From Psychroserpens burtonensis DSM 12212 (lineage in GTDB: Bacteria > Bacteroidota > Bacteroidia > Flavobacteriales > Flavobacteriaceae), in the NCBI RefSeq assembly GCF_000425305.1, contig NZ_KE384346.1:60919-124918 (forward strand): a DNA stretch of 64,000 nt, read 5' to 3'. Position 1 is the stretch's first letter; every line of letters starts with the position of its first letter. The translations under genes were made by a program, and so were the position numbers. This document shows, in pieces, positions 1-38,432 of the stretch. Under the pieces are notes generated by a model. It searched no databases. It saw only the letters and a list, made by a program, of their open reading frames with translations, and had not been told where the DNA came from.

Positions 1-67
1 ATGAATTGTTGATTGAAAATAAGAACAATGGCGAAGATGGCACAGGTTGGTTTACTGTTTTAGATGA

Positions 68-192
68 ATTGTTGGTGGAAAACACCAACAATGGCATAGG
101 TTTTTGGTTTTAGGAGTATTGTTGGTGGAAAACACCAACAATGGCTAAGGCTTATGGATTTATACAGATTGTTGGTGGAAAACACCAACAAT
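68..192 (+). repeat. Tandem run 1: three palindromes, 50-bp period
   Basis: Units 68-92, 118-142 and 168-192 have identical 10-bp stems and GAAAA loops and lie exactly 50 bp apart. The two spacers differ (ATAGGTTTTTGG-type and TAAGGCTTATGG-type), and both recur elsewhere in the array. Confidence 0.9.
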
Positions 193-469
193 GGCGAGTG
201 TTTATTTATATATTAGATAAATTGTTGATTGGAAATAAGAACAATGGCATAATGGCTGCACTTCGAATGATCTGTTAGTCTGCCTTTGTTGGTGTTTTTC
301 ACCAACAAATAGCCGGCCTTTGTTGGTGTTTTTCACCAACAAATAGTCCACCAGTGTTGGTGTTTTTCACCAACGCTATATAATAAAATGGCCACCATTT
401 TGAGTTATGGTTTAACTATGATTTGAAATAGTAGATTTAATAATAGACGGGTTTTTTGGTTTTAGGAGT
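193..469 (+). repeat. Composite repeat, copy 1
   Basis: This begins with GGCGAGTGTTTATTTATATA, then a degenerate palindrome, a unique-looking block GCTGCACTTCGAATGATC, two reverse-orientation palindromes (285-309, 319-343; 34-bp period), a third shortened one (about 353-376), and an A/T-rich block ending in TTTTTTGGTTTTAGGAGT. The same order of blocks recurs at 645-891 and 991-1267. Confidence 0.85.
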
Positions 470-644
470 ATTGTTGGTGGAAAACACCAACAATGGCATA
501 GGTTTTTGGTTTTAGGAGTATTGTTGGTGGAAAACACCAACAATGGCGCAGGTTTATTGTTTTAGATAGATTGTTGGTGAAAAACACCAACAATGGCGCA
601 GGTTTATTGTTTTAGATGAATTGTTGGCGGAAAACACCAACAAT
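470..644 (+). repeat. Tandem run 2: four palindromes, 50-bp period
   Basis: Units start at 470, 520, 570 and 620, exactly 50 bp apart. The third has loop AAAAA and the fourth has one stem mismatch (GGCGG in place of GGTGG). Spacers are of the GGTTTTTGGTTTTAGGAGT and GGTTTATTGTTTTAGATRRA types. Confidence 0.9.
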
Positions 645-891
645 GGCGAGTGTTTATTTATATATTAGATGAATTGTTGATTGGAAATAAGAACAATGGT
701 ATAATGGCTGCACTTCGAATGATCTGTTAGTCTGCCTTTGTTGGTGTTTTTCACCAACAAATAGTTCGTCAGTGTAGGTGTTTTACTTTCGCCAACGCTA
801 TATAATAAAATGGCAACCATTTTGAATTGTGCTTTAACTATGATTTGAAATAGTAGATTTAATAATAGAGAGGTTTTTTGGTTTTAGGAGT
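645..891 (+). repeat. Composite repeat, copy 2 (one hairpin fewer)
   Basis: Same block order as copy 1, but with only one intact reverse-orientation palindrome (737-761) and a decayed last one (near 770-798). It is about 30 bp shorter than copies 1 and 3, so the number of inner hairpins varies between copies. Confidence 0.85.
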
Positions 892-990
892 ATTGTTGGT
901 GGAAAACACCAACAATGGCGAAGTGGAAAACACCAACAATGGCTAAGGCTTATGGATTTATACAGATTGTTGGTGAAAAACACCAACAAT

Positions 991-1267
991 GGCGAGTGTT
1001 TATTTATATATTAGATGAATTGTTGATTAGAAATAAGAACAATGGTATAATGGCTGCACTTCGAATGATCTCTTAGTCTGCCTTTGTTGGTGTTTTCCAC
1101 CAACAAATAGCCGGCCTTTGTTGGTGTTTTCCACCAACAAATAGTCCACCAGTGTTGGTGTTTTTCGCCAACGCTATATAATAAAATGGCAACCATTTTG
1201 AATTGTGCTTTAACTATGATTTGAAATAGTAGATTTAATAATAGAGAGGTTTTTTGGTTTTAGGAGT
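991..1267 (+). repeat. Composite repeat, copy 3
   Basis: Same block order as copy 1, with reverse-orientation palindromes at 1083-1107 and 1117-1141 (loop TTTTC) and a shortened third at about 1151-1173. A fresh three-unit tandem run (1268-1392, units at 1268, 1318, 1368) follows directly. Confidence 0.85.
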
Positions 1268-1539
1268 ATTGTTGGTGGAAAACACCAACAATGGCGAGTG
1301 TTTATTGTTTTAGATGAATTGTTGGTGGAAAACACCAACAATGGCTAAGGCTTATGGATTTATACAGATTGTTGGTGGAAAACACCAACAATGGCGAAGT
1401 GGAAAACACCAACAATGGCGAAATGGCGTAGGTAGGTTTACTGTTTTTTACCAACGCTATATTATAAGACACCAACAATGGCGAAATGAAAAGACCATTT
1501 ATGGAAGCACGCAACAATAGTAGCTATTTTATTAAACCT

Positions 1540-2322
1540 TTAGATCGCATCTTCTGGTTTTTGACCCTCTTGAGCCGTTTCAAAATTCAACTTCTTTTTA
1601 CGCAATTCAAAATTCTGTCCTAAATAGACTTTACGTACCATTTCATCACTGGCTAAGTCTTCTGGCTTCCCCGCTTTTAGAATGCTACCTTCAAACATTA
1701 AATAGGTTCTATCTGTAATTGCTAAAGTTTCTTGTACGTTGTGATCTGTGATAAGAATACCAATATTTTTTTTGGTAAGTTGTGCGATAATACGCTGGAT
1801 ATCCTCGACAGCAACGGGGTCAACACCAGCAAAAGGTTCATCTAATAAGATGAAATCTGGATCTGTAGCGAGTGCACGAGCAATTTCAGTACGACGACGT
1901 TCGCCTCCAGATAATAAATCACCTCTGCTTTTACGAATATGTTCTAAACTAAACTCATCAATCAACGATTCCATTTTAGCTTGTTGTTCTTTCTTACTAA
2001 GTTTAGTCATTTGAAGGACACTCAAAATATTATCTTCAATACTCAGTTTTCTAAATACAGAAGCTTCTTGGGCTAAATATCCAATGCCGTTTTGAGCACG
2101 CTTATACATTGGGAAATTGGTAATATTATTACCTTCTAAAAATATGTTTCCACCATTTGGTTTTATGAGCCCAACAATCATATAAAAAGACGTCGTTTTA
2201 CCAGCGCCATTAGGACCCAGTAATCCGACGATTTCTCCCTGTTTAACTTCAAGAGAAACATCTTTCACTACTTTTCGTCCGTTATAGGACTTCATTAAAT
2301 TCTCGGCTCTTAGTGTTTTCAT
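1540..2322 (-). CDS. lptB: LPS export ABC transporter ATP-binding protein LptB
   Basis: This is the cytoplasmic ATPase of the LptBFG complex that extracts lipopolysaccharide from the inner membrane. The 260-residue protein has Walker A GPNGAGKT at 36-43, the signature LSGGE at 137-141, Walker B FILLDEP near 158-163 and the switch histidine in ITDHN near 194. The match to LptB along the whole length (including the QEASVFRKLS stretch after the Q-loop) is what separates it from other ABC ATPases. It carries a charged C-terminal tail of about 20 residues beyond the usual end. It is the last gene of a minus-strand group with kdsD, which makes the LPS inner-core precursor; the shared envelope theme supports the call. 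The repeat array lies just past its stop codon. Confidence 0.93.
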   Translation of the reverse strand: MKTLRAENLMKSYNGRKVVKDVSLEVKQGEIVGLLGPNGAGKTTSFYMIVGLIKPNGGNIFLEGNNITNFPMYKRAQNGIGYLAQEASVFRKLSIEDNILSVLQMTKLSKKEQQAKMESLIDEFSLEHIRKSRGDLLSGGERRRTEIARALATDPDFILLDEPFAGVDPVAVEDIQRIIAQLTKKNIGILITDHNVQETLAITDRTYLMFEGSILKAGKPEDLASDEMVRKVYLGQNFELRKKKLNFETAQEGQKPEDAI

Positions 2323-37935: not shown

Positions 37936-37973
37936 ATAATATCAAAACACTAAAACACTAAAATACTAAAATA

Positions 37974-38432
37974 ATGCAAACACTAAAACACTATTCAATC
38001 ATTGCATTGCTATTTCTTTTCTTTTGCTGTAATGTATCACCAAAACCCATAGATTATGGCAGCGATGGTTGCTATTTCTGTAAAATGACCATTGTAGATA
38101 AAGTTCATGCAGCAGAAATTGTAACCAAAAAAGGAAAAGTCTATAAGTTTGATGCTACAGAATGTATGATTAATTTTAAAGATGAATTTGATACTACTGA
38201 AATAGGCTTGTATTTATCAAATAACTATTCAGAACCTGAAGAGCTAATCGATGCTACTAAAGCAACGTTTTTAATAAGCGAAAATATTTCAAGTCCCATG
38301 GGAGCTTTTTTATCTGCTTTTAAAAATAGAGCAGACGCTGAAAATACTAAAGCCGAGAAAACAGGTGCTTTATTTACTTGGGAAGAATTATTAATTTATT
38401 TTAAAGACAAGAGCGATGTATATAATCAATAA
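37974..38432 (+). CDS. nosL: NosL copper chaperone lipoprotein
   Basis: 152 residues with a lipoprotein signal (LFFCC, Cys18/19). The NosL core is clear: GCYFCKMTIVDKVHAAEIVTKK...YKFDATECMINF with the CxxCKM copper-binding motif. Supplies Cu(I) for the CuZ centre of NosZ in the periplasm. The next gene starts inside its last codons (17-bp overlap). Confidence 0.9.
   Translation: MQTLKHYSIIALLFLFFCCNVSPKPIDYGSDGCYFCKMTIVDKVHAAEIVTKKGKVYKFDATECMINFKDEFDTTEIGLYLSNNYSEPEELIDATKATFLISENISSPMGAFLSAFKNRADAENTKAEKTGALFTWEELLIYFKDKSDVYNQ

Follow-up and report, generated by a model that had tools for sequence, protein, structure and literature searches.

A GGC-tagged hairpin array in Psychroserpens burtonensis as a probable orphaned REP cluster of a Bacteroidota RAYT clade

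The window analyzed here is a 64-kb stretch of the genome of Psychroserpens burtonensis DSM 12212 (contig NZ_KE384346.1), and its left end carries a dense array of short hairpins, most of which are tagged with GGC at the stem foot. To the left of the array, outside the window, lies a gene that we take from its sequence to be of the LURP type, and to its right lies a gene presumed on the same grounds to encode an LptB-type ABC ATPase. Farther left, the interval that separates this next gene from the window start holds one more exact copy of the hairpin and, after it, a run of N. The array is very probably a cluster of repetitive extragenic palindromes (REPs) cognate to a Bacteroidota clade of REP-associated tyrosine transposases (RAYTs), with a GGC/GCC tag in place of GTAG, which was probably orphaned and enlarged in tandem.

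The repeated unit is NNN-GTTGGTG-NAAAA-CACCAAC-N'N'N'-GGC, in which a 10-bp stem encloses a 5-nt loop. A scan allowing up to 5 mismatches returned 22 matches, all ending before position 1420, and no further match in the rest of the 64-kb window. Sixteen are exact (11 on the plus strand and 5 on the minus strand), three carry 1 or 2 mismatches (350 −, 623 +, and 1148 −), two are half units (919 and 1395; 4 mismatches each), and one is degenerate (8; 5 mismatches). The tag is GGC in 17 of the 19 copies with no more than 2 core mismatches and GGT in the other 2. A first-pass annotation had listed ten hairpins in three runs (68/118/168, 470/520/570/620, and 1268/1318/1368) and described more than fifteen near-identical copies. 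All ten are present with the stem, loop, and GGC that it described, although the stem, which it called perfect, has one broken pair at 620; the 16 exact and 3 near-exact copies counted in positions 1 to 1420 bear out the larger figure. Its exact 50-bp step describes the plus-strand runs but not the minus-strand copies, which, like the half units, it did not list and which follow one another at 34 bp (282, 316, and 350; 1080, 1114, and 1148). Plus and minus runs alternate, no clean inverted-pair unit stands alone, and the spacers are few and recurring. The 24-bp, 50-bp, and 300-nt periods, together with the half units, point to growth by ordinary tandem duplication.

The hairpin is not confined to this site, as the first-pass annotation would have expected of a local tandem duplication without function. 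In the same genome, 43 matches (up to 3 mismatches) were found on eleven contigs (the window contig and ten more), compared with 0 for a reversed-pattern control, so that its occurrence exceeds chance. Across a genome collection, the exact core with its tag (the pattern required GGC) was found in at least 116 DNA stretches, of which 114 are Bacteroidota by name, 1 Ignavibacteriota, and 1 Pseudomonadota; the chance expectation is about 0.1 (for 21 fixed bases sought on both strands of 257 billion bases). Counting P. burtonensis itself, the hairpin is present in 7 of 97 genomes in a set of relatives, in 8 of 397 in a family sample, and in 8 of 316 in a phylum sample. In the first of these sets, Subsaximicrobium wynnwilliamsii (G021) has 141 matches, P. 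burtonensis 39, Gelidibacter salicanalis IC162 (G035) 27, and the other four genomes 1 or 2 each. The single match in family genome G114 has a stem-breaking mismatch and may be due to chance.

The loci fetched around these matches contain 135 hairpin clusters, of which 95 are intergenic, 5 lie inside open reading frames (ORFs) as drawn by a simple ORF caller, and 35 stand at locus edges and were left unclassed. Among 190 adjacent hairpin pairs within 300 bp, 59 have the "−+" arrangement. An 88-bp GCC-hairpin..hairpin-GGC unit occurs at locus L180 and, inverted, at L153 of one metagenome-assembled genome (MAG), with different outer flanks at the two places, and the P. burtonensis genome holds units of the same layout that are 90 to 93 bp long. 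Such paired units without a gene are the REPIN form (REP doublets forming hairpins).

Since the search pattern prescribed the core, loop, and tag, only the outer base pairs of the stem count as structural evidence in this set. Taking one copy per locus from 114 of the 116 loci (the other two had too little flank), we found Watson-Crick pairs at outer positions 1, 2, and 3 in 110, 106, and 94 loci, respectively. Over 2,000 shuffles the means were 88.5, 63.2, and 33.1 and the maxima 95, 75, and 49, and sliding the partner by +1 lowered the counts to 79, 30, and 8. The outer three base pairs of the unit covary. Pairs 4 to 6 were matched in just 13, 15, and 25 of the 114 loci, which puts the end of the stem at pair 3; the shuffle is uninformative for these positions, as their 3' side is the fixed GGC. 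The covarying outer stem fits the first-pass suggestion that the hairpin, or a protein that binds it, is under selection.

When ORFs near hairpins (≤2.5 kb) were clustered, the top cluster comprised 18 ORFs from 11 loci, the eight nearest lying 0 to 12 bp from a hairpin. Its members, which belong to the HUH proteins and have NHIH- and YIHxNP-type motifs, are RAYTs and come from several genera. The second cluster, from 10 loci, contained ABC ATPases and pointed to the lptB site discussed below. In an alignment of ten RAYTs (alignment A1), H59, H61, Y135, N139, and P140 are invariant; the first motif is mostly NHIH, a W is followed by K, Q, or E, and the tyrosine motif takes the forms YIH-E/Q/N/A/L/Y-NP. 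The NCBIfam model REP_Tyr_transpos matches all ten at E ≤ 1e-3, although the NF047646 score of member 1, at 71.5 bits, is under the curated cut-off of 80 bits, and one of the ten also matches the NCBIfam IS200 model. The Y1 transposase family PF01797 matches 4 of the 10 at the same threshold and was rejected as a weak marker of the mobilizer, missing the other 6. TnpA_REP, Protein Data Bank (PDB) entry 4er8, was the sole profile match at E ≤ 1e-3 (E = 2.6e-6). The same entry, in which the protein is bound to a REP hairpin, was the best PDB fold match (E = 3e-7, TM 0.62/0.65, rmsd 5.6) of an AlphaFold model of the RAYT of Winogradskyella undariae (L234; pLDDT 86, pTM 0.83).

The nearest hairpins bracket the RAYT gene, with their tags outermost (GCC-hairpin to its left, hairpin-GGC to its right), in 9 of the 13 loci checked (L234, L158, L155, L191, L273, L274, L275, L141, and the broken L187); at L191 the left hairpin overlaps the gene end. 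These 13 were drawn from 15 distinct RAYT loci, after exclusion of L129, which is cut by the locus edge, and L237, which holds pieces only. In the family sample, three genomes have a RAYT of at least 285 bits, and all three are among the 8 hairpin genomes of 397 (hypergeometric p = 5e-6); in the phylum sample, 4 genomes are shared between 8 with the hairpin and 11 with a RAYT among 316 (p = 5e-5). Both values are illustrative and our conclusion is independent of them: the score thresholds were chosen after the scores had been seen, RAYTs adjacent to hairpins were the source of alignment A1, in which 2 of the 3 family matches (G148 and G378) are included, and the RAYTs of the shared phylum genomes have other cores or the tag GGG. 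The profile searches scored up to 8 candidates per genome in the family sample and up to 11 in the phylum sample. Some RAYTs in hairpin-bearing genomes were considered as cognates and rejected. Those at L059 and L065 of S. wynnwilliamsii are flanked by different hairpins of their own, several of which are followed by CTAC (GTAG type), and those at L063 and L055 (G035) are likewise flanked by other hairpins.

An open RAYT gene lies 3' of lptB in W. undariae (L234), Gelidibacter salicanalis PAMC21136 (L215), and genome G378 (L274), and so the window array stands at what appears to be an old RAYT home; alternatively, independent insertions may have occurred at one tolerant site. In Winogradskyella pacifica (L187) the RAYT is broken and separated from lptB by one gene. 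G. salicanalis IC162 (L072) has hairpins at the lptB site without a detected RAYT, and a single hairpin is found there in genome G015 (L085) and in Psychroserpens damuponensis (G009; L150). The lptB-side array of S. wynnwilliamsii (L205) runs up to the end of its contig, which encodes a 36-residue RAYT fragment there, and the gene may therefore sit in an assembly gap. Nine congeneric genomes, including that of P. burtonensis, have the LURP gene; hairpins lie between it and lptB in 3 of them and in none of the other 6 (L084, L086 to L089, and L091). Among the 40 longest matches, the array DNA is 71 to 84% alike to the arrays of L215, L274, L205, and L234 over 78 to 165 bp, hairpins included. 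The P. burtonensis assembly consists of 68 contigs, some of which end in these repeats, and a run of N lies inside the array, so that loss of the RAYT in this lineage is likely rather than proven.

Hairpins of related design accompany a wider set of RAYTs. In the phylum sample, 9 of 11 RAYT loci (163 to 265 bits) are flanked by a hairpin of the same plan in which the two variable core bases are TG (L327 and L328), CG (L329), GA (L330 and L334), CT (L331, L332, and L333), or TC (L335). The 20 rows of a 57-RAYT tree for which a GT-NN-GTG hairpin was detected all fall in one 22-row clade (support 100/100), and none was detected for the 35 rows outside it. Thirteen of these 20 rows have the TG core, most of them having been found through nearness to the hairpin, and nine (L327 to L335) came from the profile search, which was blind to hairpins. 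The core dinucleotide requires 4 changes on the tree for its 5 states, compared with 5 to 7 in 300 shuffles. One sister group beyond this clade numbers 15 RAYTs, of which 12 have CRAAGT hairpins in their loci, and in 6 of these a copy has 3 outer pairs followed by AGC. We tentatively propose, as a possibility to which we give rather less than even credence, a joint reading in which the RAYTs of the clade would read a modular REP code, the enzyme would have a home beside lptB, and in the window lineage the gene would have been lost while the hairpins survived and multiplied there. In such a code the outer stem would be free in sequence but paired, around a frame, GT--GTG / CAC--AC, that stays constant; two base pairs that set the specificity would follow the RAYT clade (TG, CG, GA, CT, or TC); and a short tag would stand at the foot, GGC in the branch of the window and GGG or others in some sisters. 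The lptB side would then be, in several Flavobacteriaceae, a fixed and domesticated-like home of the enzyme rather than a stop for a nomadic one.

As for mechanism, a RAYT encoded between two hairpins in relatives is predicted to recognize them in single-stranded form, and GCC, the complement of GGC, at the foot of the stem would be its guide tag, replacing the usual GTAG. The enzyme would cut near the GCC-tagged foot, so that GCC-hairpin ... hairpin-GGC would move as one unit. This cutting and moving is inferred from work on TnpA_REP (PMC8266576, PMC6006769). In the window lineage the RAYT would have been lost and the hairpins left behind, and after the loss of the enzyme the cluster would have been enlarged by slippage or unequal recombination, not by transposition. 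The first-pass annotation had offered, among other ideas, a REP/MITE-like element (MITE, miniature inverted-repeat transposable element) amplified by an enzyme encoded elsewhere. In kind this proposal was apt, since relatives have a RAYT bracketed by the hairpin, at the orthologous site too, but tandem duplication is likelier than an enzyme to have enlarged the window array.

A number of observations weigh against a RAYT-based origin. The own genome, where the first-pass annotation had proposed to look for a RAYT, gave none at E ≤ 1 with all 21 candidates scored, and the window array holds no RAYT trace at full search sensitivity; PF01797 is also absent from the genome, an absence that is weak evidence by itself because this family finds just 4 of 10 RAYTs. 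In the family sample, 5 of the 8 hairpin genomes (G000, G035, G046, G114, and G228) gave no RAYT profile match among the candidates scored, at most 8 in each. At L215 and L229 the nearest right-hand hairpin is reversed, L222 is cut on the left, and L143 is ambiguous, with a broken gene. Two RAYTs of the phylum sample, L325 and L326 (265 and 261 bits), have no hairpin of this plan within ~300 bp. The tag itself varies in the wider clade: it is GGC at 4 of the 9 flanked RAYTs (L327, L330, L334, and L335), GGG or GGT at L328, L331, and L332, and different again at L329 and L333. None of the 4 phylum genomes with both the hairpin and a RAYT of at least 160 bits has the TG core with GGC at its RAYT, three having other cores (G589, G632, and G547) and one the tag GGG (G741).

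It is possible, though in our estimate unlikely, that a host function maintains the hairpins, which would serve as sites for chromosomal proteins or as stabilizers of mRNA 3' ends; this would be compatible with an origin in a REP-RAYT system. BIMEs (bacterial interspersed mosaic elements) of Escherichia coli are bound by gyrase or IHF. The intergenic clusters avoid divergent gaps (6 of 95, compared with 80 of 438 background gaps) and favor convergent ones (34 of 95 compared with 77 of 438), the remainder being codirectional (55 and 281), and single hairpins adjoin the same gene in two congeners. However, avoidance of promoters is equally expected of tolerated insertions, the two orientations are about equally frequent in clusters, and 389 of 397 family genomes lack any match, an absence that a housekeeping site would not show. 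That the array acts as a multi-hairpin RNA transcribed from positions 1 to 1520 would agree with the perfect 10-bp stems and the compensatory outer pairs, yet a covarying stem is equally expected of single-stranded DNA bound by an HUH nuclease. Copies stand on both strands, in the array and at other sites, and no Rfam family reached threshold in the window, so we regard this explanation as very improbable.

An ordinary IS200/IS605 transposase might instead have mobilized the hairpins, since a TnpA of this type (PF01797 at 7e-38) lies between hairpins in the L190 array of G. salicanalis PAMC21136. The unit that it shares with its homologues is ~580 bp (L190 3588-4169, blastn) and excludes the hairpins, the hairpin core is found in none of 14 homologue loci (up to 2 mismatches), two family genomes with close homologues (G028 and G185) have no hairpin match, and the window genome has no PF01797 match. 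We rejected this TnpA as the mobilizer and regard it as a passenger, which leaves such a transposase a slight chance at best. A mere local duplication unrelated to mobile elements would suit both the failure to find a RAYT in the genome and the 24-, 34-, and 50-bp and 300-nt repeats, which are duplicated in tandem within the locus, but the presence of the unit on ten further contigs of the same genome and in no fewer than 116 stretches from other genomes makes this scarcely credible. Tandem duplication is thus refuted as a complete account and likely as the way in which the array grew. An orphaned REP cluster remains the reading that we prefer.

The features of the array are collected in Table 1. 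Elsewhere in the window, an 8-base tandem repeat, AAAACACT, occurs in ~6 copies at positions 37944-37993.

Table 1. Coordinates of the hairpin copies and associated features at the left end of the window
Feature	Positions	Strand
REP array (orphan cluster, on the preferred reading), right-hand part of a cluster starting left of the window	1..1488	
Degenerate unit ending GGC (core match 8-32, 5 mismatches)	5..32	+
Exact hairpin (10-bp stem 68-92) and GGC tag	68..95	+
Exact hairpin and GGC tag	118..145	+
300-nt superunit, again at 923-1222 (96%) and 577-876 (71%)	125..424	+
Exact hairpin and GGC tag	168..195	+
Exact hairpin and tag	282..309	-
Exact hairpin and tag	316..343	-
Hairpin, tag GGT, 1 mismatch to pattern	350..377	-
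Exact hairpin and GGC tag	470..497	+
Exact hairpin and GGC tag	520..547	+
Exact hairpin and GGC tag	570..597	+
Hairpin and GGC tag, 1 stem mismatch	620..647	+
Exact hairpin and tag	734..761	-
Exact hairpin and GGC tag	892..919	+
Half unit (hairpin 3' half and GGC), within 24-bp tandem	919..943	+
Exact hairpin and GGC tag	966..993	+
Exact hairpin and tag	1080..1107	-
Exact hairpin and tag	1114..1141	-
Hairpin, tag GGT, 2 mismatches to pattern	1148..1175	-
Exact hairpin and GGC tag	1268..1295	+
Exact hairpin and GGC tag	1318..1345	+
Exact hairpin and GGC tag	1368..1395	+
Half unit (hairpin 3' half and GGC), within 24-bp tandem	1395..1419	+
lptB-type ABC ATPase gene (presumed); marks, by synteny, where relatives have the RAYT site	1540..2322	-

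Other settings of the hairpin were also recorded. On contig C16 of the P. burtonensis genome (L022 4272-4654), a stretch of ~260 bp is duplicated, and a hairpin ends each copy. S. wynnwilliamsii has large higher-order arrays (L067 5900-10060 and L069 11890-14330) with ~370- and 236-bp spacing and alternating strands. At L172 (4215-6847), L204 (5090-6950), and L143 (2244-4590), small ORFs ~1 kb apart are separated by hairpins, some of which share up to ~240 bp on one side, a layout like that of cassettes, for which REP insertion by itself does not account. The element at L190 (3588-4169), of the IS200/IS605 type with an ISDra2-like TnpA, appears to have inserted into a hairpin array. The hairpin core is also present in five stretches of viral contigs (L238 to L242). 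In MAGs outside the Bacteroidota, the hairpin occurs at L148 and at one locus titled as Pseudomonadota, either by transfer or by mis-binning.

REP-RAYT pairs are a main model of transposases that act on single-stranded DNA and persist in bacteria with no clear mobility, and the biochemistry described in one report concerns GTAG-tagged pairs of groups 2 and 3 (PMC8266576). The Bacteroidota would offer a counterpart with another tag and with a set of natural RAYT/hairpin pairs large enough to suggest a rule of recognition. A shared RAYT site, with lineages that have the enzyme and lineages that do not, would make the question of how REPs and RAYTs are maintained directly testable, and the window lineage, if our reading is true, would be a natural experiment on REPs lacking their transposase.

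Several known systems resemble the array in part. A CRISPR array has unique spacers, whereas the spacers here are drawn from a few recurring sequences, as the first-pass annotation had already observed, and no cas genes were recognized in the first 12 kb, where ORFs were read by eye and no cas profile was run. The core of an integron attC site has the order RYYYAAC..GTTRRRY; the window hairpin starts with GTT and ends with AAC, which is the reverse. CGTC-tagged palindromic repeats are described from Bacteroidetes among other phyla and, according to the abstract, without a dedicated transposase (PMC3733652), and share with our hairpin the combination of palindrome and tag, but the tag here is not CGTC and the hairpin flanks a RAYT in relatives. 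IS200/IS605 elements combine an HUH Y1 enzyme with terminal hairpins and guide bases beside the stem (PMC6006769), all of which recalls the hairpin-RAYT pair; the enzyme of the relatives instead matches the REP-associated model and the 4er8 fold, and hairpins free of any enzyme are the common form here. The hairpin core string, in five spellings, has no match in the text of the papers searched.

The first-pass annotation held that the array resembles no standard repeat class, a view that we revise: in all but the tag, it is built like REPs and REPINs. Like a REP element, the window hairpin is a short palindrome in many, mainly intergenic copies, with a conserved tag at its foot (GGC in 17 of 19), and it flanks a cognate RAYT in its lineage, in that relatives have one so flanked at 9 of 13 loci, while none was found in its own genome. 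It also forms inverted pairs dispersing as one unit, as REPINs and BIMEs do, and the protein of the relatives has the HUH motif, the tyrosine in Y-x-x-x-N-P, and the fold of TnpA_REP. The canonical REPs, REPINs, and BIMEs of E. coli and Pseudomonas are likewise tagged intergenic palindromes in inverted pairs that flank an HUH Y1 RAYT, but their tag is GTAG or GTGG and that of the window hairpin is GGC/GCC. Since the plan is that of a REP and the canonical tag is absent, the hairpin is REP type with a different tag. The RAYT clade of the hairpin is probably subclass 2.6, equivalent to group 5, which is described from Bacteroidetes with the motifs NH[LIV]H, WQ, and YIH[QN]NP, a C-terminal SS, and a mean length of ~179 amino acids (PMC6006769). 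In a comparison with that table row, the motifs of the hairpin-flanked RAYTs fit loosely. The same source calls the flanks of this subclass atypical, with weaker structures that recur elsewhere in the genome and lack GT[AG]G, and its text gives no consensus (PMC6006769); our clade agrees in being a Bacteroidetes RAYT whose flanking structures are copied elsewhere and lack a GT[AG]G tag, whereas the window hairpin has a 10-bp stem, a GGC tag, and a core common to many genera. REP-RAYT systems are known, and the GGC/GCC-tagged hairpin of this Bacteroidota RAYT clade is a different tagged form of them.

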